This document shows positions 12,658 to 23,252 of a stretch of DNA of 64,000 nt, one piece after another. This DNA is from Kitasatospora viridis. GTDB lineage: Bacteria > Actinomycetota > Actinomycetes > Streptomycetales > Streptomycetaceae. Within the stretch, counting starts at the first letter, position 1; each line of letters starts with the position of its first letter. A program made the translations under genes and the position numbers. The notes beneath the pieces are model-generated. The model saw only the letters and a list, made by a program, of their open reading frames with translations. It was not told where the DNA came from and did no database searches. The DNA is taken from the NCBI RefSeq assembly GCF_007829815.1, contig NZ_VIWT01000001.1, positions 1,697,501-1,761,500 of the forward strand, given 5' to 3'.

Positions 12658-13056
12658 GGCCGTACTCCTTGGTGTTCCGCCCGGCACACCGTTGCTGCCC
12701 TGCGGGCACTCGGCGGCTACCGGGTCTGCTCGGTTGTCCGTGAGGGCCGGGCGGCCCTCACGCCTGACGCCCCGGCATGCCGAGCCGACCGGGCCTGGGC
12801 GGCAGAGCCGCGCCGGGCTCGGTTGGACCGAGCGGCAATCACACCGGCGCGACCGACGGCTTGTGCCGTGCGGCTGCCGGTGGCGGGGCGTGCGAAGTCG
12901 ACCCGGGACACCGGGTCGCGTGTGAAGTGTACGGGATGCCCAGCGTGACCGGCGATTCAGTGAGTGCGGGGGCTCCGGTCGTCCACAACCCGGGGGTTGT
13001 CCACAGGGTCGGGGCGCGTGCTTCCCGGCGGCGGCGGGCGGGCGCAGGCTCGGGGC
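12658..13056. promoter_or_regulatory. Divergent control region rpsB / M23 peptidase
   Basis: About 400 bp without a gene. On the rpsB side it holds a leader hairpin (CGTGAGGGCCG at 12739-12749 with CGGCCCTCACG at 12752-12762). It also holds a TACACT -10-like hexamer on the minus strand (12926-12931); no convincing -35 was found. On the peptidase side it holds two DnaA boxes (12979-13005). No small gene with a convincing start was seen. Confidence 0.5.
12979..13005 (+). promoter_or_regulatory. Pair of DnaA boxes, 18 bp apart
   Basis: TCGTCCACA at 12979-12987 and TTGTCCACA at 12997-13005 both fit the streptomycete DnaA box (T/C)(T/C)(G/A/C)TCCACA in direct orientation, 18 bp from start to start. 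They end 51 bp before the M23 peptidase ATG. A pair with the same pitch lies in front of yraN. Confidence 0.55.
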
Positions 13057-14430
13057 ATGACGGAGCTTCAGGAGTCCCGGGCGCCCGGGCGGCGGCCGGT
13101 CGCGGGGCGGCGGGGCGGCCGCTGGGTCGTGGTGATTCCCCTGGTGCTGCTGGTGACGGCGGTGCTGTCGGTGGCGGCCGACCGCGCCGCTTCGGTCGGC
13201 GTCGCCGGGGCAGCCGCCGCGATCGGGCCGCCCGGGCGGGTGTGGCCGGTGGGCGGACCGGGAGCGCTGCTGCGCCGGTTCAGCCCGCCGCCGCAGCCGT
13301 GGGCCGCCGGGCACCGCGGGGTCGACCTGGCGGCCGCGCCCGGCGAACCGGTGCGGGCGGCGATGGCCGGGGTGGTCGCCTTCGCCGGGGAGGTGGCCGG
13401 GCGGCCGGTGGTGGCGGTGCTGCACCCGGGCACCGGGGATCCGCCGCTGCGCACCACCTACCTGCCGGTGGCCGAGGCGCCGCCGGTCGGCACGGCCGTC
13501 GCGGCGGGCCAACAGCTCGGCGTGCTGGCGGCGCCCGACGGGCACTGCCCGGCGTCCTGCCTGCACTGGGGGCTGCTGCGCGGACGGCGCTACCTGGACC
13601 CGCTCGCCCTGCTCGGCGCCGGCCGGGCCCGGCTGCTCCCCCTGGACGGCGGGGCGCGGGCCGCGCCCATCGGGGCGGCGAGCCTGCTGCCGCGGCGCTC
13701 GGCGGGGGTGGCGGCTCAGGTTCTCAGCCCACCGCCACCGGGCCTCCGGAAGTCAGCGCAGGTCGGAGAGCTTGGCCCGGAGCTGGAGCACCGATTTGGT
13801 GTGGATCTGGCTGACCCGGCTCTCCGTCACGCCGAGCACCTGACCGATCTCCGCCAGGGTCAGGCCCTCGTAGTAGTAGAGCGTCACGACGGTCTTCTCG
13901 CGGTCCGGCAGGGTGTTGATCGCGCGGGCCAACAGCTTGCGCAGCTCGCGGTCCTCGGCCACCTCGACCGGGTTCTCGGCCCCGGTGTCCTCCAGCGTGT
14001 CCATCAGGCTGAGCCGCTCACCGCCCTCGCCCGCGGAGTGCATCAGTTCGTCCAGCGCCACCACGTTCGCCAGCGAGAGCTGGCTGAAGATCGCGTGCAG
14101 CTCCTCGACCGGGATGCCCATCTCGGCGGCCACCTCGGGCTCGCACGGCGTGCGGCGCAGTCGGGCCTCCAGGGCCGCGTAGGTCCGTTCGACCGCCTTC
14201 GCCTTCTGGCGGATCGAGCGCGGGATCCAGTCGAGCGCGCGGAGCTCGTCGATGATCGCTCCGCGGATCCGACTGATCGCATAGGTCTCGAACTTGATCG
14301 CGCGATCCGGGTCGAACTTCTCGATCGCGTCGATCAGACCGAACACACCGGAAGAGACGAAGTCGGCCTGTTCGACGTTGGCGGGCAGGCCGACTCCGAC
14401 CCGGCCGGCCACGTACTTGACCAGCGGTGA
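13057..14430 (+). CDS. M23-type cell-wall peptidase; frame lacks its expected stop
   Basis: The start [11 protein letters not shown] is followed by a membrane anchor or signal segment (about residues 23-43). An M23/LytM-like beta domain then runs from about residue 65 to 195, with the Zn-ligand motif GHRGVDLAA and a reduced second motif, [10 protein letters not shown]. Family members usually end soon after that motif, near 13700. Here no in-frame stop occurs until 14430, so the last 220-odd codons would run antisense through whiG. The C-terminal part is probably not real protein-coding selection. A lost stop or a frameshift near 13640-13750 is likely. A +1 or -1 shift could end it at the TGA at 13812. 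The enzyme would cleave peptidoglycan cross-links. Confidence 0.55.
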
Positions 14431-14898
14431 GTAGTGGAGGATCAGCTGCTCGCGCAGCCTCGGGTCAGCGGTGGCCTTGTAGGAGCGCCAGAGCTGCTCC
14501 AGCGCACTGCGCTGCTCGGCTGCCTGCGGGGCGGGGGCGGCGCGCGGCGCGGCGGCGGGGGGCACGGGGGTGGGAGCGGGCGCGGGCGCGGCGTGGGACT
14601 CGGTGACCGGGGCGGTCGAAGCGGTCGGGGGTGGTGCGGCGGGCGGTGGTGGTGGCGCGGGCGCGGGGAGTCTCGCCGGGGGTGGCGCCGGTGGTTCGGT
14701 GCGCCGGCGCGCGCCCCGGCTCGGCGGCGGGACCGAGACCAGGCCGGTCGAGGCGGACCGCTGGCCCGCGCCGCCCGCCCCGTCGGCCTTCGCCGGCAGC
14801 ACCGGCTGCACGTCACCGCCGGTGCGCGCCTCGGTGCCGGATGCCCCCGGGGGCCGGCCGGCACTGGTCCCCCTGTGTCCGGGAATGTGTGTGGGCAT
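13753..14898 (-). CDS. whiG: RNA polymerase sigma factor WhiG (FliA type), extended N-terminus
   Basis: A sporulation sigma factor. From about residue 131 to the end it matches WhiG closely: [79 protein letters not shown], and region 4 [20 protein letters not shown]. The S. coelicolor protein is about 280 residues; this one is 381 because residues about 30-130 are a Pro/Ala-rich low-complexity tail. The ATG at 14898 ([10 protein letters not shown]) resembles the S. coelicolor start; an ATG at 14928 is an alternative, and neither has a strong RBS. WhiG starts aerial hyphae on sporulation and is held by the anti-sigma RsiG with c-di-GMP in Streptomyces. The gene follows dprA on the same strand. 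Confidence 0.93.
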
Positions 14899-15110: not shown

Positions 15111-16310
15111 TCAGCGGATCACCCTCCAGTGCGACCCCACGCGCTGGACGAACCCCAGCGAGCAGAGCTCGTAGAGCAGCTTGAGCACCTGGTCCGGGGT
15201 CCGTCCGGTGCGCACCGCCAGCTCGCCCGGCCCGGCCCCGGCCGGACCTCCCGGCATCGCCTCCAGCAGGTCGGCGGCCGGACCGTGCAGCAGGTCCCGG
15301 GGGCGCGGCTGCTCGTGGTGCGGCGGGGCGAGGTCGGCGCCGATCGCGCCGATCAGCTCGATCACCTCGGTCGCGCTGGTCACCAGGGTCGCGCCGCCGC
15401 GCAGCAGCTCGTGCACCCCGGCGGACAGCTCGGAGGTGACCGGCCCGCAGACGCCCATGGTGTGCCGGTTCAGCGCGAGCGCCCGGTGCGCCGTGCTGAG
15501 CGCGCCGCTGCGCCGGGCGGCCTCGACCACCACGGTGCCCCGGGTGAGCGCGGCCAGCACCCGGTTGCGCAGCACGAACCGGAACCGGTTCGGGTGCTCG
15601 CCCGGCGCCAGCTCGCTGACCAGCTGCCCCTGCGCCCGGATCCGGTCGATCAGCTCGCTGTTGCCGCGCGGGTAGCGCACGTCCACCCCGTTGGCCAGCA
15701 CCGCGACCGTCATCCCGCCGACCGCCAGCGCGCCCCGGTGGGCGGCCGCGTCGATCCCGTAGGCCGCGCCGGAGCAGACCACCCAGCCACGCTCGGCCAG
15801 CTCGGCCGCGAGCTCGGCGGCCACGTGCGAGCCGTACTCGGTGCAGGCCCGGGAGCCCACCACCGCCACCGAGCGCAGCGCCAGCAGCCGCAGCGACCCG
15901 GTGCCCAGCACCCAGAGCCCGATCGGCTCGCCCTCCGCGAGATCGGCCAGCTGGCCCGGCCACTCCGGATCGCCCGGTACCAGGAACCGGCCGCCCAGCT
16001 CCGCCACTGCGGCCACATCGGCCGCCGGGTCGACGGTGGCGAGCCGGCGGCGCAGGGTGTCCCGGCGGGCCTGGTCGAGCCGCAGCCGGGGGTGCCCGGC
16101 GCCGTCGCGCAGCACCCGGACCAGTTCGACGGCGGACCGCTCCAGCAGCCAGCGCCCGACCGCGGCGCCACCGGGCTCCACCACCCGGCTGAGCGCGGCC
16201 CTGGCGAGCCGCTCCTCGGCGGACGCGCGCTCGCGCCCGCCCCGATCGGGCTGACCGGCCGTCGTCTGTCGCCCCGTCATCTGCAACTCCGTCATCTGCG
16301 GCTCGGTCAC
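15111..16310 (-). CDS. dprA: DNA-processing protein DprA
   Basis: A 399-residue protein. A Rossmann-like DNA-protecting domain holds [45 protein letters not shown] and [17 protein letters not shown]-terminal winged-helix part follows ([20 protein letters not shown]). DprA loads RecA on incoming single-stranded DNA. The GTG at 16310 overlaps the stop of the ComM-like gene (GTGA), so the two are translationally coupled; in-frame ATGs at 16295 and 16280 are possible alternatives. The yraN-comM-dprA order is common in Gram-positives. Confidence 0.93.
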
Positions 16311-17917
16311 GTCGCGCCCCCGAAGGAGCGGGCACCAGCCGGGAACCCCCGGCGCAGCGCGAGCGCGGTGCGCAGTTCGACGGCCCCCGGCGCGTCCCGG
16401 CCCGCCAGGTCGGCCACCGTCCAGGAGACCCGGAGCACCCGGTCCAGGCCCCGCGCGGTGAGCATCCCCCGGTCCATCTCCCGCTCCACCTCGGCCAGCG
16501 CGCTCGGTCCGGGTCGCCACCGGGTGCGCAGCTCGTGGCCCGGCACCTGCGAGTTGGTCCGCCAGGGCGTGCCGTCGAACCGCCGCGCCGCCCGCTCCCG
16601 AGCCTCCCGCACCCGCGCCGCCACCACCTCGGTCCGCTCGGCGAACCGGTCCCGCTCCAGCAGCTCGACCTTGGTCACCGGCTCGACCTGCACCCGCAGG
16701 TCGACCCGGTCCAGCAGCGGCCCGGAGAGCCGGGCCTGGTACCGGTTCACCATGGCCGGCGTGCAGTCGCACCCCTCGCCGCGGCGCGAGTAACGCCCGC
16801 ACGGGCACGGGTTGGCGGCCAGGCAGAGCAGGAAGTTGGCGGGCAGCCGCAGCGATCCGGCCGACCGGGCGATCACCACCTCCCCGGCCTCCAGCGGCTG
16901 CCGCAGCGCGTCCAGCACCCGGACCGGGAACTCGGGCGCCTCGTCCAGGAAGAGCACGCCCCGGTGGGCCAGCGAGACCGCGCCGGGGCGGGGCAGTCCG
17001 CTGCCCCCGCCGACGATCGCGGGCATCGTGGTCGAGTGGTGCGGGGCGCAGTAGGGCGGCAGGTCGACCAGCGGGCGCCCGGGCGGCAGCAGCCCGGCCA
17101 CCGAGTGCACGGCGGTCACCTCCAGCGCCTCCGCCCTGGTGAGCGGCGGCAGCAGCCCGGGCAGCCGCTCGGCCAGCATGGTCTTCCCGGCGCCGGGCGG
17201 CCCCTTGAGGTAGAGGTGGTGGCCGCCGGCGGCGGCGATCTCCAGCGCCTGCCGGGCCTCGTACTGCCCGGCGACGTCGCCCAGGTCGGGCCCGTAGGCC
17301 AAGCCGGCGGTGCCGCGCCGCACCGCCGCGCCGGGCAGCAGCAGGCCGGCCATCAGCGGGTCGGGCCCGCCGATCGCCGCGTCGGGCGGCTCCTCGGGCA
17401 CGGGTTCGTCGGTGAGCACCGCGATCAGCTGCCGCAGGCTGCGCACCCCGAGCACCGAGATCCCCGGCACCAGCGCGGCCTCGGCGGCGGTCTGCTCGGC
17501 CACCACCACCTGCCGGTAGCCCGCCTCGGCCGCGGCCAGCACCGAGGGCAGCACCCCGCGCACCGGCCGGACGCGCCCGTCCAACCCCAGCTCACCGATG
17601 ATCAGCAGGTCGGCGATGGCGGGCGGGGGCAGCCGTTCGGCCGCCGCGAGCACCGCGCAGGCGACCGCCAGGTCGAAGCCGCTGCCGCTCTTGGGCACCG
17701 AGGCGGGGCTGAGCCCGACGGTGAGTTTGCGCTGCGGCCAGCTCTCGCCGCTGTTGGAGACCGCGGCCCGCACCCGGTCGCGGGCCTCGCTGAGTGCCTT
17801 GTCCGGCAATCCGACCAGGGTGAACGCGGCGATCCCGGGTTCCAGGTCGGCCTGCACCTCGACCACCACGCCGTCCACCCCGACCAGGGCGACCGAGCAG
17901 GTCCGCGCGAAGGCCAT
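16307..17917 (-). CDS. comM: YifB/ComM-type Mg-chelatase-like AAA+ ATPase
   Basis: A 536-residue protein. The N-terminal third ([54 protein letters not shown]) is the Lon-S16-like ComM domain. The AAA+ domain has [31 protein letters not shown] and [10 protein letters not shown] with a Cys cluster. The C-terminus is the Mg-chelatase-like lid ([17 protein letters not shown]). ComM is a branch-migration helicase used in natural transformation. It lies 1 nt after yraN and overlaps dprA by 3 nt. Confidence 0.93.
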
Positions 17918-17918
17918 C

Positions 17919-18329
17919 TCAGACCACCCCCCGCAGGTGCTCCACCCGGGCGGCGCCGCGCGCCCGGCTGATCACGCAGACCAGGTCGATCCGCACCCCG
18001 CCGGGCGGCAGCGGGGCGGGGCCGGGCACCGCGACCGCGGCCAACCGGGCGAAGTGCCCCGGCCAGCGTTCGCTCAGCCAGCGCTCGGCGAGCGTGCGCA
18101 GCCGCTCGACCCGGACCGCGCCGAGGGCCTGCTCGGGCTGCTGGAAGCCCTGCTCGGACCGGGTCTTGACCTCGCACACGGCGACCGTGTCGCCTTCCAG
18201 CGCGATGATGTCCAGCTCACCCTGGGCGCAGCGCCAGTTGCGCTCCAGGATCCTCAGGCCGTCCTGCTCCAGTCGGCGGGCGGCCACCTCCTCGCCGTAC
18301 CGGCCGAGGGCCTGCAGTGCGTTCCGCAC
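17919..18329 (-). CDS. yraN: YraN family endonuclease-like protein (UPF0102)
   Basis: A protein of about 136 residues with the UPF0102 core: GRYGEEVAARRLEQDGLRIL, ERNWRCAQGELDIIALEGD and VAVCEVKTRS, a restriction-endonuclease-like fold with the E-x-K pair. The start is set by the perfect Shine-Dalgarno GGAGGTGATC at 18333-18342, which stands a few bases before the GTG at 18329 and contains the other possible GTG (18338). It opens the yraN-comM-dprA unit. The cellular role is unknown. Confidence 0.88.
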   Translation of the reverse strand: MRNALQALGRYGEEVAARRLEQDGLRILERNWRCAQGELDIIALEGDTVAVCEVKTRSEQGFQQPEQALGAVRVERLRTLAERWLSERWPGHFARLAAVAVPGPAPLPPGGVRIDLVCVISRARGAARVEHLRGVV

Positions 18330-18332
18330 GGC

Positions 18333-18342
18333 GATCACCTCC
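18333..18342 (-). promoter_or_regulatory. Perfect ribosome-binding site of yraN
   Basis: GGAGGTGATC on the minus strand is a ten-base match to the anti-Shine-Dalgarno of 16S rRNA. It favours the GTG at 18329 over the in-frame GTG at 18338, which lies inside it. Confidence 0.7.
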
Positions 18343-18365
18343 GCTGGGAGGCTCCCGCGCGGCGG

Positions 18366-18392
18366 GCCGACGGTCCATCACGAACCGTCGGC
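18366..18392. repeat. 9-bp inverted repeat beside DnaA boxes
   Basis: GCCGACGGT (18366-18374) and ACCGTCGGC (18384-18392) are perfect reverse complements with a 9-bp spacer. They stand between the DnaA boxes and the yraN start. This could be an operator or an RNA hairpin in the yraN leader. Confidence 0.6.
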
Positions 18393-18393
18393 C

Positions 18394-18420
18394 TGTGGAC
18401 AACCCCGCCCCTGTGGACAA
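18394..18420 (-). promoter_or_regulatory. Pair of DnaA boxes, 18 bp apart
   Basis: TGTGGACAA occurs at 18394-18402 and 18412-18420, that is TTGTCCACA twice on the minus strand, 18 bp from start to start. The boxes point towards yraN and lie 64 bp upstream of its start. They mirror the pair in front of the M23 peptidase gene. Confidence 0.6.
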
Positions 18421-19421: not shown

Positions 19422-20180
19422 TCAGCGGCTCCCGCGCAGCCGCCGGCCGAGCGCGGCCACCGGCCCGGTCAGCGAGGTCAGCACGATCAGCGCGGCTCCG
19501 CCGACGCACGCCCAGAAGAGCGGTTCGAGCGGTCCGGGCCGACCCGCCGTCGGACGGCCGAGGGCGGCGAAGGCGTCGGTCGGGTGGTGCGGGCCGAACC
19601 GGGCGAACGGCCAGACGGTGGCCTCCACCCGGGCCTTCACCGCCGAGTCCGGCACGGTGCCGAGGTCCTGGTCGAGGTGCACCCGGGAGTCCAGCGAGCC
19701 TGTGCGGTTGTCGCCGAGCACGAAGAGCCGCCCGGCCGGCACGGTCACGCTGAACGCGTCGCCGGCCGGCGCGGGCCCGGCGGGTTCCAGGTAGGGCTCG
19801 GCGATCCGGGTGCCGTTGACGGTGATCCCGCCCCGCACGTCGCCGGCCACGGTGTCGCCGCCGACCGCGACCACCCGCTTGACCAGGGTCTCGTTGCCCC
19901 AGACGGGGTCCTGGAAGACCACCACGTCGCCGCGCCCGACGGTGCTGCCGGAGACGGTGCGGCCGAGCACCGTGTCCCCGGCGAGGATGCCGGGCTCCAT
20001 CGAGCCGGTCGGCACCGCGTAGGGGCGGTACAGCACGGCGATCCCGGCGAATCCGCCGACCAGCAGCAGCAGGCCGAGGGCCAGCGCGACGCCCTGCAGC
20101 ACGCCCCCCAGCCGGCGGGCGGCGACGGCGGGCCGGTCGGCCGCGCCGGTGCCGGTGGCTCCTTCGGCGAGGCTGCTCAT
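19422..20180 (-). CDS. sipZ: Type I signal peptidase, SipZ position
   Basis: A 252-residue membrane-bound signal peptidase (S26). After a cytoplasmic stretch there is one N-terminal membrane segment (about residues 29-50). The catalytic Ser is in VPTGSMEPGI and the Lys in ETLVKRVVAVGGDTV; the box LFVLGDNRTGSLDSR follows. A second membrane segment is near the C-terminus (LFWACVGGAALIVLTSL). The ATG at 20180 has AGGACGG seven bases before it; a GTG at 20186 is the alternative. A 174-nt gap separates it from the other three sip genes, and the Nudix gene follows at once. This matches the separate sipZ operon of S. lividans. Confidence 0.9.
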   Translation of the reverse strand: MSSLAEGATGTGAADRPAVAARRLGGVLQGVALALGLLLLVGGFAGIAVLYRPYAVPTGSMEPGILAGDTVLGRTVSGSTVGRGDVVVFQDPVWGNETLVKRVVAVGGDTVAGDVRGGITVNGTRIAEPYLEPAGPAPAGDAFSVTVPAGRLFVLGDNRTGSLDSRVHLDQDLGTVPDSAVKARVEATVWPFARFGPHHPTDAFAALGRPTAGRPGPLEPLFWACVGGAALIVLTSLTGPVAALGRRLRGSR

Positions 20181-20354
20181 GGTCACCGTCCTGGGTGCGA
20201 GGGGCGGACACGGCGGCGGGCCGTGGCACGTCCGAGCAGATTACTCGTCGGTACCACGGCCCGCGCAAGAGTCGCCCGCCACTGCGTTCGGCGGTCCTCG
20301 ACCCGTCCGGCCCCGGTCAGCCCGTCCGGCCCCGGTCGACCCTTCCCGCCCCGG

Positions 20355-21371
20355 CTAGCCCTTGCGCCGCCGGCGCAGCCACCAGGCCACCGGCAGCGCA
20401 CCGGCCGCACCGAGCGCCGGCGGGGCGAACCCGGCCGCCGAGATGCCCTTCTGACTGAACGTGGACGGCACGGAGAGCGTCGACCAGTGGTTCAGCGGCC
20501 AGGCCACCACGAACGCCCGGCCCACCACGTTGCCGTCCGGCACGGCGCCGCCGCCCGGCTGGTCCATGTGGTAGCGGGAGTCCAGCGAGTCGTCCCGGTG
20601 GTCGCCCATCACCCACACGTGGTCGGCGGGCACCTTGACCGGGCCGAACGGCCGGTTGCCGCAGGCACCGAACTCCGGGTTGCTGTCGAAGACGTACGGC
20701 TCGTTCAGCGCCACGCCGTTGACCTTGAGCGGGCCGTTGCCGTCGCACTCGACGGTGTCGCCGCCGACCGCGACCACCCGCTTGATCAGGTCCTTCTCGT
20801 TGGCGGAGGGCATCAGGCCGATGAAGCTCAGCACGTCCTGCAGCCCGCGCACCACCGCGTTGGAGCTCTGCTGGGTGGGCACCTCGTTGAGCCAGCCGCC
20901 CGGGTCGTGGAAGACCACGACCTCGCCGCGGTCCGGCTTGGCGCCGAACCAGGGCGTCAGCTTGTCCACCAGCACCCGGTCGCCGACCTGGAGGGTGTTC
21001 TGCATCGACTCCGAGGGGATCGAGAAGGCCTGGACGAAGAAGGTCTTGATGACCAGCGCCAGGACCAGCGCGATGCCCAGCAGGATCGGCAGCTCCTTCC
21101 AGAAGGACCGCGGCTTGCGCTCCTTCCGCGGTTCGCCGAGCTCGCGGACCGGCGGCTCGTCCCCGCCGCCCGCGCCGACGGCTCCGGGCTGCGGCTCCGG
21201 AGCGCCGCCGTCCTCCTCGGGCAGGTCCGCGCCGTGCGGTCCGGCCGCGTCCTGTGGTCCGCCGTGCCCGTCGGCCGGTCCGGCCGGGCCGGACGAACCG
21301 GCGGACTGGTCCGCGCGCCCGGAGCCCTCAGGCTCGCCGGCGCCGCGGGTACCGATCACCAGATCCCCCAC
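20355..21371 (-). CDS. sipY: Type I signal peptidase, SipY position
   Basis: A 338-residue S26 signal peptidase. A long Gly/Pro/Glu-rich cytoplasmic N-terminus (about 90 residues) precedes the first membrane segment. The catalytic Ser is in IPSESMQNTLQVGDRVLVDK and the Lys in DLIKRVVAVGGDTVE; VWVMGDHRDDSLDSRYH follows. A C-terminal membrane segment ends in WWLRRRRKG. The GTG at 21371 has a strong site (GGGAGGAG). The start overlaps the end of the upstream sip gene by 16 nt. In S. lividans SipY is the main signal peptidase; the symbol here rests on gene order. Confidence 0.9.
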   Translation of the reverse strand: MGDLVIGTRGAGEPEGSGRADQSAGSSGPAGPADGHGGPQDAAGPHGADLPEEDGGAPEPQPGAVGAGGGDEPPVRELGEPRKERKPRSFWKELPILLGIALVLALVIKTFFVQAFSIPSESMQNTLQVGDRVLVDKLTPWFGAKPDRGEVVVFHDPGGWLNEVPTQQSSNAVVRGLQDVLSFIGLMPSANEKDLIKRVVAVGGDTVECDGNGPLKVNGVALNEPYVFDSNPEFGACGNRPFGPVKVPADHVWVMGDHRDDSLDSRYHMDQPGGGAVPDGNVVGRAFVVAWPLNHWSTLSVPSTFSQKGISAAGFAPPALGAAGALPVAWWLRRRRKG

Positions 21372-22408
21372 GACTTCTCCTCCCTGCTGTGCGGACGACC
21401 CTCGTCCGCGGTCGAAAGTGCCGCACAGCGGGCACCACGCCTGCTTCTCCTGCACTTCTCTATCACTCCGGGCGGCCCGTCCCCGGCATCCCACACGGCG
21501 GGCGGGCGGAGCCCGCGGGCCGTCGGCCCTGCTCGGCGCCGCCGTCGGCGTACGGTCGCAGCTGCGCCCAACATCCCCATAACGAGTGAGGATTGCAGGG
21601 GATCCGGCCCGGGCCGCGGGATTTTCGCCGGTGCCCCGGCAGCGGCCCGTGGGTAGCTCGGCCGTGCGAGCGTGTGGATCCGGTCGAACGGCCAGCCGAT
21701 CATGAACGCCCGGCCGATCACGTTGCCGACCGGCACCGTGCCCTGGTCCGGGCCCGACATGTGGTAGCGCGAGTCGGCCGAGACGTCCCGGTGGTCGCCC
21801 ATCACCCACAGCCGCCCGGGCGGCACGGTCACCTGGAAGGCGAGCCGTGAGGGCGGGTTGCCGGCGGCCAGGTAGGGCTCGTCGATCGGGGTGCCGTTGA
21901 CGGTGATCCGGCCCTGCTGGTCGCAGCAGGCGACCCGGTCACCGGCCACTCCGATGACCCGCTTGATCAGGTCCTGCTCGTCGGCCGAGGGCAGCAGGCC
22001 GACCCAGCTGAAGGCGGTCTTCACGCCGTCCACCACCGGCCCGTCGGTGTCCGGGGCGTGGCCCTGCTCCAGCCAGCCGCCCGGGTCCTTGAAGACCACC
22101 ACGTCGCCGCGCTGCGGGGTGCTGCCGAACCACGGGGTGAGCTTGTCCACCAGCACCCGGTCGCCGATCGCGATGGTCTGCTCCATCGAGCCGGACGGGA
22201 TGACGAACACCTGGACGAAGAAGGTCTTGAGCACGAGCGCGATGACCAGTGCCACCACGGCGATCAGCGGCAGCTCGCGCAGCATCGACCTGCGCCCGCG
22301 GCGCCCCGCCCGGCGGGCGGTGCGGCGGCGTTCGGCCCGGCCGCGGCCGGCCGGCGGCCCGGCGCTGGGGGCGGGTGGTTCGGTCGCGGCCCTAGCCCTG
22401 CTCCCCAT
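21356..22408 (-). CDS. sipX: Type I signal peptidase, SipX position, long basic tail
   Basis: A 350-residue S26 signal peptidase. An Arg-rich N-terminus precedes the membrane segment LIAVVALVIALVLKTFF. Catalytic Ser is in IPSGSMEQTIAIGDRVLVDK and Lys in DLIKRVIGVAGDRVA; LWVMGDHRDVSADSRYHM follows. After a short C-terminal hydrophobic stretch come RRRRRR and about 55 unusual residues that run into the start of the next gene. The ATG at 22408 has GGGGGAG before it and overlaps the upstream sip gene by 17 nt. The tail may reflect a lost stop codon. The symbol rests on gene order. Confidence 0.88.
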   Translation of the reverse strand: MGSRARAATEPPAPSAGPPAGRGRAERRRTARRAGRRGRRSMLRELPLIAVVALVIALVLKTFFVQVFVIPSGSMEQTIAIGDRVLVDKLTPWFGSTPQRGDVVVFKDPGGWLEQGHAPDTDGPVVDGVKTAFSWVGLLPSADEQDLIKRVIGVAGDRVACCDQQGRITVNGTPIDEPYLAAGNPPSRLAFQVTVPPGRLWVMGDHRDVSADSRYHMSGPDQGTVPVGNVIGRAFMIGWPFDRIHTLARPSYPRAAAGAPAKIPRPGPDPLQSSLVMGMLGAAATVRRRRRRAGPTARGLRPPAVWDAGDGPPGVIEKCRRSRRGARCAALSTADEGRPHSREEKSWGIW

Positions 22409-23252
22409 GCGCACCGCTCCCCCCTGCGGCGGGGATGGCGGCGAAGCCGGCGGGGCGGTCCAGGGTGCGCCAGTGGCCGATCGGGAAGAGCACCAGGTCG
22501 GCCCGCCCGATCACCTTGCGCACGGGCACGAACCCGCCGCCGGGGTCGCCGAGGTGGTCGCGGGAGTCCCGGGAGTCGCTGCGGTGGTCGCCGAGCACGA
22601 AGAGCGCGCCGGGCGGCACCTGGACGTCGAAGCCGACGCTGGAGGGCGCGTCGCCGGGGAAGAGGTAGTCGGTCTCCGGGAGCGCGACGCCGTTGACGGT
22701 CAGCTCCCGGGCGCCGGCCCGGTAGGTCACCCGGTCGCCGCCGACGCCGATCACCCGCTTCACGAAGATCGATCCGTCGAACGGGCCGATGCCCACGGCC
22801 TCGCCCAGCTTGCGCAGGTCGGCCCCGATCCCGGGGTCGTTGTCGCCGCCCGGCACGAACGAGTCGGTGCCGTCGAAGACCACCACGTCGCCGCGGTGCA
22901 CGGTGCCGCCGAACTGGTAGGCGAGCTTGTTGACCAGCACCCGGTCGCCGGGCCGCAGGGTGTTCTCCATCGAGGCGGAGGGCACCGAGAAGGGCTGCGC
23001 CACGAAGGCGTTGACCAGCAGCAGCACCACGACGACCACGGCGAGCAGCTTGGCCAGGTCGCGTAGTCCCCAGCCGAACCAGCCCTGGCCGTCCTCGGCG
23101 CCCCCCTCGGCTGACGACTCGTCGGCTGACGGCTCGTCGGCCGGCGGCGCCTCGGCGACGGCGCCGGAAACAGCCGCGGACCGCGACGGCTCCCGCTCCC
23201 CGGAGGGTGCGGGCGTGCCGTCGCGGTCCGCGATCGGTTCGTGGCTGCTCAT
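22392..23252 (-). CDS. sipW: Type I signal peptidase, SipW position
   Basis: A 286-residue S26 signal peptidase and the first of three overlapping sip genes. It has an acidic Ser/Glu/Ala-rich N-terminus, one membrane segment (LLAVVVVVLLLVNAFVA), the catalytic Ser in VPSASMENTLRPGDRVLVNK, Lys in SIFVKRVIGVGGDRV, and LFVLGDHRSDSRDSRDH. It lacks a C-terminal membrane segment, as SipW does in S. lividans. The enzyme removes signal peptides from exported proteins on the outer face of the membrane. It follows rplS after a hairpin. Confidence 0.9.
   Translation of the reverse strand: MSSHEPIADRDGTPAPSGEREPSRSAAVSGAVAEAPPADEPSADESSAEGGAEDGQGWFGWGLRDLAKLLAVVVVVLLLVNAFVAQPFSVPSASMENTLRPGDRVLVNKLAYQFGGTVHRGDVVVFDGTDSFVPGGDNDPGIGADLRKLGEAVGIGPFDGSIFVKRVIGVGGDRVTYRAGARELTVNGVALPETDYLFPGDAPSSVGFDVQVPPGALFVLGDHRSDSRDSRDHLGDPGGGFVPVRKVIGRADLVLFPIGHWRTLDRPAGFAAIPAAGGSGAHGEQG

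Follow-up and report, generated by a model that had tools for sequence, protein, structure and literature searches.

Ahead of yraN, the first gene of a yraN-comM-dprA set, stand two copies of a 9-mer known as a DnaA box, 18 bp apart and pointing to the gene, and this arrangement raises the question of whether they form an operator, which genes it serves and what binds it. Our reading is that such a pair is probably the operator of a dedicated, activator-dependent promoter class for competence genes, one that would be found in Kitasatospora and much of the Actinomycetes, with lineage variations. The window is the whole stretch of Kitasatospora DNA analysed (64 kb), and coordinates below refer to it.

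The box pair in front of yraN

17919..18338, minus strand: yraN (UPF0102), from profile and reading-frame evidence; GTG start at 18338
16307..17917, minus strand: comM/yifB, from profile and reading-frame evidence
15111..16310, minus strand: dprA (PF02481); stretch 15114-16310 searched, start provisional
18412..18420, minus strand: distal box, TTGTCCACA on the yraN strand, exact match
18394..18402, minus strand: proximal box, TTGTCCACA on the yraN strand, exact match
18373..18378, minus strand: weak -35-like ATGGAC, placed by eye; its GG.C occupies conserved columns +18, +19 and +21 after the proximal box
18349..18354, minus strand: -10-like hexamer GAGCCT, 39 nt after the proximal box
18365..18393, no strand: palindrome GGCCGACGGT-N9-ACCGTCGGCC, arms 18365-18374 and 18384-18393; judged not to belong to the element

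On the plus strand the two copies read TGTGGACAA (18394-18402 and 18412-18420, pitch 18), so that the yraN strand carries TTGTCCACA-N9-TTGTCCACA, and the proximal box is separated from the GTG start by 55 nt. The preliminary description had reported two copies 18 bp apart, directed at yraN from about 50-65 bp before its start, with the gene behind them heading yraN-comM-dprA, and all of this is borne out, the gene families having been found by searches.

Exact TGTGGACAA has a third and last copy in the window at 12997-13005, and these 3 matches compare with a mean of 0.05 after shuffling. The whole genome to which the window belongs (10.09 Mb) holds 31 exact copies, 10 of which form 5 tandem pairs, every one at pitch 18, compared with 15 singles and no pair when the pattern is reversed as a control. 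Exact pairs whose spacer measures 0-30 number 85 across 61 same-genus genomes and occur in 42 of these, against 1 for the reversed control. Their pitch is 17 in 35 and 18 in 40 (together 75/85), with 20 in 5, 21 in 1 and 24 in 4, and the 3 readable cases among the five pitch-20 pairs all fall within dense, oriC-like box arrays. The shuffle, reversed-pattern and Markov controls thus rule out a chance origin of the box pairs.

The third copy belongs to another pair, which lies 5.4 kb from the yraN pair and ahead of a gene for an M23 peptidase that by eye is directed away from rpsB:

12979..12987, plus strand: distal box of the first pair, TCGTCCACA, sequence match with one mismatch
12997..13005, plus strand: proximal box of the first pair, TTGTCCACA, exact match
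13045..13050, plus strand: -10-like hexamer CAGGCT, 39 nt after the proximal box
13057..13722, plus strand: M23 peptidase gene, ATG at 13057; 222 aa searched, end provisional

This first pair had been described as having the same 18-bp pitch, and while the spacing stands, the second exact copy does not, one box being TGTGGACGA. A shared control mode for both pairs had also been suggested, and it finds support in their common pitch, direction, and distance to the -10-like hexamer and start.

An inverted repeat was likewise said to adjoin the yraN pair. It exists, with arms of 10, but fails as a part of the element: the stem measures 10 here, whereas the 58 further same-genus yraN promoters examined have stems of 2-7 and contain neither 9-nt arm. 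Present in 1/59 promoters, the palindrome is private to this genome, and we have discarded it as a component of the promoter element.

Conservation of the pair and its promoter core

The preliminary description had named conservation of the pitch beforehand as its test, and the pitch proves to be conserved. With up to 2 mismatches allowed, the pair is kept in 59/60 same-genus yraN loci (56 loci with no mismatch), at pitch 17 in 45 and pitch 18 in 14, L086 being the one locus that lacks it. All 59 promoters possess a hexamer with A at position 2 and T at position 6, located 38-40 nt after the proximal box. GG.C at +18 to +21, the place of a -35 element, is conserved among the yraN promoters. 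On the rpsB side (up to 1 mismatch, pitch 16-19 allowed; 57 of the 60 loci at least 8 kb long), an oppositely directed pair is found in 39/60 loci, 20 at pitch 17 and 19 at pitch 18, and all 39 have the A-at-2, T-at-6 hexamer at offset 38-40; the M23 gene downstream was checked for six of these loci.

In a wider set of records, and with up to 3 mismatches, 74/80 yraN loci carry a pair of pitch 17 or 18. Among L295-L363 (69 loci, 66 of them named Streptomyces) the pair is present in 63 and the hexamer is at offset 28 in 56. In most Streptomyces yraN promoters (L294-L363) TTGTCCACCAAGATCCAC replaces the proximal box, and its AAGATC is conserved directly upstream of the -35 place.

Genes that share the pair in Kitasatospora

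To define what else is served by such pairs we used 13 genomes, hand-picked from the 61 mostly for their few contigs, the pattern TT[GAT]TCCACA at pitch 17 or 18, and tblastn for downstream genes within 1.5 kb. All 13 contain pairs, 76 in total (control 0), and 76/76 precede one of eight gene types, 74 by tblastn and 2 (L157 and L177) as the SAF gene by eye. These types are yraN-comM-dprA, comEA-comEC, ssb, a Tad-pilus operon with tadZ first, a SAF/CpaB-like gene, the M23 peptidase, DUF4192 and DUF6099. By downstream match the 13 genomes yielded YraN 13 times, ComEA and DUF6099 12 times each, SSB 10, SAF 9, TadZ 8, M23 6 and DUF4192 4, and any one genome has an exact pair at 3 to 7 gene types. 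The pair architecture of the window therefore recurs ahead of a DNA-uptake gene set: one operator is common to genes of uptake, translocation and processing, as is the mark of a competence regulon.

Several of these genes head longer series, tadZ being followed by genes for a T2SSE ATPase and T2SSF, and comEA by comEC (PF03772) and holA. The Kitasatospora SAF gene is named from its position and likeness; a relative in family f4 (L194) matches CpaB, and a relative in g2 (L198) gave no Pfam match in the part searched, g2, probably Streptomyces, being the second genus that the window's family contributes to the class sample described below. When as many as 2 mismatches are allowed at pitch 18, the genome of the window (10.09 Mb) has 7 sites, versus 1 for the reversed control. 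They are the five exact pairs, the M23 pair and a pair situated 187 bp upstream of the tadZ match, and they represent seven gene types; a pitch-17 pair stands ahead of ssb.

Promoter geometry and proposed mode of action

In short, the element combines a direct repeat of the box TTRTCCACAg, at pitch 17 or 18, with a weak -10-like hexamer some 39 nt downstream of the proximal copy. Over the 76 sites an A-at-2, T-at-6 hexamer occurs 39 nt after the proximal box in 55, at 38 in 13 and at 40 in 8, where one site may score at two offsets and no other offset from 5 to 74 exceeds 7. If the hexamer is set as -12 to -7, the proximal box in Kitasatospora spans about -60 to -52 and the distal one about -78 to -70. 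Start codons are often found 6-7 nt past the hexamer, which suggests leaderless messages; at yraN the ribosome site is there instead. The preferred distances step by approximately 11 bp, or about one helical turn: 28, 39 and 50, and also 18 and 29, where 39/50 is the box-to-hexamer distance at comEA, 18/29 the box pitch, and 28 the hexamer offset of Streptomyces yraN promoters.

From the upstream position of the boxes, the weak core and the one-turn steps we infer an activator that touches RNA polymerase. Bound to the boxes, it would contact the polymerase along a single helix face and would jointly switch on the genes for the pilus, the DNA receptor and channel, SSB, DprA/ComM and the wall hydrolase. 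DnaA boxes in promoters can serve activation or repression, and this lends some weight to the opposite scheme, in which DnaA acts as a repressor that keeps the genes off while it is plentiful and releases them on titration or inactivation. A repressor, however, would have no need of distance steps of one helical turn, and the Kitasatospora boxes lie upstream of a weak promoter core and not over it, so that we regard repression as quite improbable and continue with an activator.

Occurrence in the class Actinomycetes

The strict pair was found in 17/118 genomes of the class (reversed control 0). Outside the window's own genome these provide 25 pairs, which precede yraN (L193, L207), comEA (L196, L205), DUF4192 (L195, L206), CpaB/SAF (L194, and L198 by likeness), TadZ (L211, and L212 by likeness), SSB (L208) and, in family f18, recA (L190 by Pfam, L191 by likeness). 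Another 4/25 (L201-L204) are in putative oriC-like surroundings, and 8/25 stand ahead of other genes (L189, L192, L197, L199, L200, L209, L210 and L213). The recA pairs have pitch 18, lie about 50 nt before recA and are followed by a -10-like TAGCGT or TAACGT. DUF4192, which with DUF6099 makes up the set L182/L184/L195/L206, is also found behind pairs in two other families.

A ComEA match is present in 109/116 class genomes, and the region upstream of comEA was sampled in 70 of the 109, namely 30 initial loci and 40 chosen for family spread; with L262 (118 bases) left out, 69 are usable. The rule applied calls for a box (one mismatch tolerated), followed at a distance of 37-41 or 48-51 nt by (T/C)AnnnT and, 4-12 nt beyond that, by a start codon. 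Its spacings were framed on the first 30 loci, and the other 39 were therefore counted apart. The rule holds in 47/69 regions (22/30 of the framing loci and 25/39 of the others), compared with a first-order Markov expectation of 0.77 and 0 on the reverse strands; spacings are 38-40 in 41 and 50-51 in 6, and 22/69 regions lack the element under this rule. A second direct TCCACA has a pitch of 17-18 in 5 regions, 27 in 2 and 29 in 9, and lies at 19, 22, 31-35 or 49 in 8; an inverted TCCACA at 16-17 is seen in 5 regions, all of family f18. The operator at comEA is thus conserved beyond the genus. What speaks against a general promoter class are the regions without the element, the small share of class genomes with a strict pair, the pairs ahead of other genes or in oriC-like surroundings, the yraN locus L086 and the varied placing of the distal partner.

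Candidate regulators

For S. coelicolor and M. tuberculosis the published high-affinity DnaA box is the 9-mer TTGTCCACA (PMC4285127, Table 1, in excerpt), and the sites described here, being this 9-mer or a close variant, are DnaA boxes by sequence. Boxes of different species vary mainly in the first three bases, as in TGATCCACA of C. crescentus (PMC4285127, in excerpt), and the comEA boxes vary in the same first bases. Because of this identity and this DnaA-like variation, DnaA appears to be the likeliest regulator, and we lean modestly towards it.

The geometry is another matter. The densest cluster of the same genome (L188, at about 2931 kb), which is a putative oriC by density alone, comprises 23 boxes with up to 1 mismatch and contains no same-strand pair at 17 or 18, whereas the elements described here join just two boxes, at pitch 17/18, to a promoter core whose hexamer keeps a fixed distance, and do not resemble an oriC or titration cluster. 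DnaA would consequently need another binding geometry at the pairs. Two more DnaA-box clusters lie outside the densest one on contig C1, the first with 7 boxes and the second with 5 when one mismatch is allowed:

L186 from 8272 (about 2763 kb): extra DnaA-box cluster
L187 from 10258 (about 2915 kb): extra DnaA-box cluster

DnaA-box clusters outside oriC have been described in Streptomyces. Together with the two extra clusters, they would fit the notion that the pairs are DnaA-titration sites only and the adjacent genes incidental. Against this stand the 76/76 pairs at eight gene types and their fixed distance to the -10-like hexamer, which leave the idea virtually no probability, and as the sole reading we consider titration ruled out.

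A more serious contender, although still a doubtful one, is a dedicated, unnamed competence regulator that binds the boxes, their DnaA-box likeness being due to convergence or shared ancestry and DnaA having no part. A specialist would account for the exclusivity of the pairs, which at this pitch precede only eight gene types in the 13 genomes, and for a pair pitch that differs from the oriC-like cluster. In M. luteus, moreover, expression of comEA/EC is influenced by a small HTH_17 DNA-binding gene that neighbours the one for SAF/CpaB (PMC8467076, in excerpt). On the other side, the box is the published DnaA box and varies as DnaA boxes do, and the families identified for the eight promoter-proximal genes include no known DNA-binding regulator. 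BldC, the HTH_17-type protein chosen for comparison, likewise has operators made of direct repeats in Streptomyces promoters, but it recognizes AATTXXXX(C) (PMC5859096, in excerpt), which by eye does not fit TTRTCCACA, and we have rejected it as the protein at the boxes. The window's own yraN promoter has no AATT; some other yraN promoters have one between box and hexamer, and BldC may bind elsewhere in these. The BldC regulon paper makes no mention of competence, comEA, Tad, pilus or ssbB. The S. venezuelae LexA paper does not mention comEA, dprA, ssbB or DnaA, competence occurring there in a reference only.

If DnaA is the activator, a step of which we are less sure than of the activator itself, competence would depend on how much free or ATP-bound DnaA is available, and the uptake genes would be linked to replication state, as the preliminary description had supposed. 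The full version of this reading, with DnaA as master activator of natural competence across Actinomycetes, including streptomycetes regarded as non-transformable, acting through helically phased paired boxes so that uptake follows replication state, and with DUF4192 and DUF6099 as new competence factors, is put forward tentatively and as slightly short of an even bet. Among the matches listed in open-licence literature we found nothing in print that joins DnaA boxes to competence genes, and those listed for Streptomyces DnaA clusters, a DnaA regulon and SsbB held nothing relevant either.

Relation to known competence systems

Competence regulons with a shared operator are familiar from ComK boxes, CinA boxes and CRP-S sites. 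The present set is like them in that one short operator stands before comEA/comEC, dprA, an ssb and a pilus operon, and unlike them in having a DnaA-box operator, a Tad pilus and a -10-like core at a fixed distance. The host organisms of this element are not known to take up DNA by transformation (for K. viridifaciens, PMC9500057, in excerpt).

Within the actinomycetes, where the control of competence is described as little known (PMC8467076 and PMC12849477, in excerpt), M. luteus offers the nearest comparison. It has in common comEA/EC, the Tad pilus and the SAF/CpaB gene (PMC4322843, PMC8467076 and PMC12849477, in excerpt); its tad genes are required for transformation (PMC4322843, in excerpt), and a SAF/CpaB knock-out loses 10^4-fold (PMC8467076, in excerpt). 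Under the terms checked, the excerpts of these three papers contain no operator of this kind, and the words 'DnaA' and 'motif' are absent from the PMC12849477 excerpt. For streptomycetes, SCO2567/2568 have been tabulated as 'Competence operon' (PMC4255298, in excerpt).

It could be argued that the gene set is co-regulated for a role other than transformation, be it repair, adhesion or development. Walled cells of K. viridifaciens took up no DNA, and deletion of comEA/EC was without effect on uptake by L-forms, the role of these genes being called unknown (PMC9500057, in excerpt); the recA pair of family f18 and the sigma-70-type gene after dprA (see below) would also suit such a role. Yet comEA-comEC, dprA, ssb and the Tad genes together are parts employed in transformation, and with the need for tad genes in M. 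luteus this makes another role unlikely in our judgement, so that we retain competence as the probable function.

The purpose of comEA/comEC, dprA and the Tad genes in streptomycetes has so far been unclear, and a common promoter would make of them one jointly controlled system as well as a reporter for finding the inducing condition. For actinomycetes in general the pair supplies a candidate operator for competence, and should DnaA be the regulator, replication control and gene exchange would be directly joined. DUF4192 and DUF6099, which have no known function, and the M23 peptidase are nominated as competence genes.

Two observations concern the neighbours of the set in the window. The gene that follows dprA is

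13756..14616, minus strand: sigma-70-type gene in the same direction as dprA; stretch searched

which we take to be whiG and which is possibly in the same transcript as dprA; by this route a developmental sigma factor might likewise come under the box promoter. Lastly, four adjoining reading frames at 19422-23252 resemble type I signal peptidases by eye.
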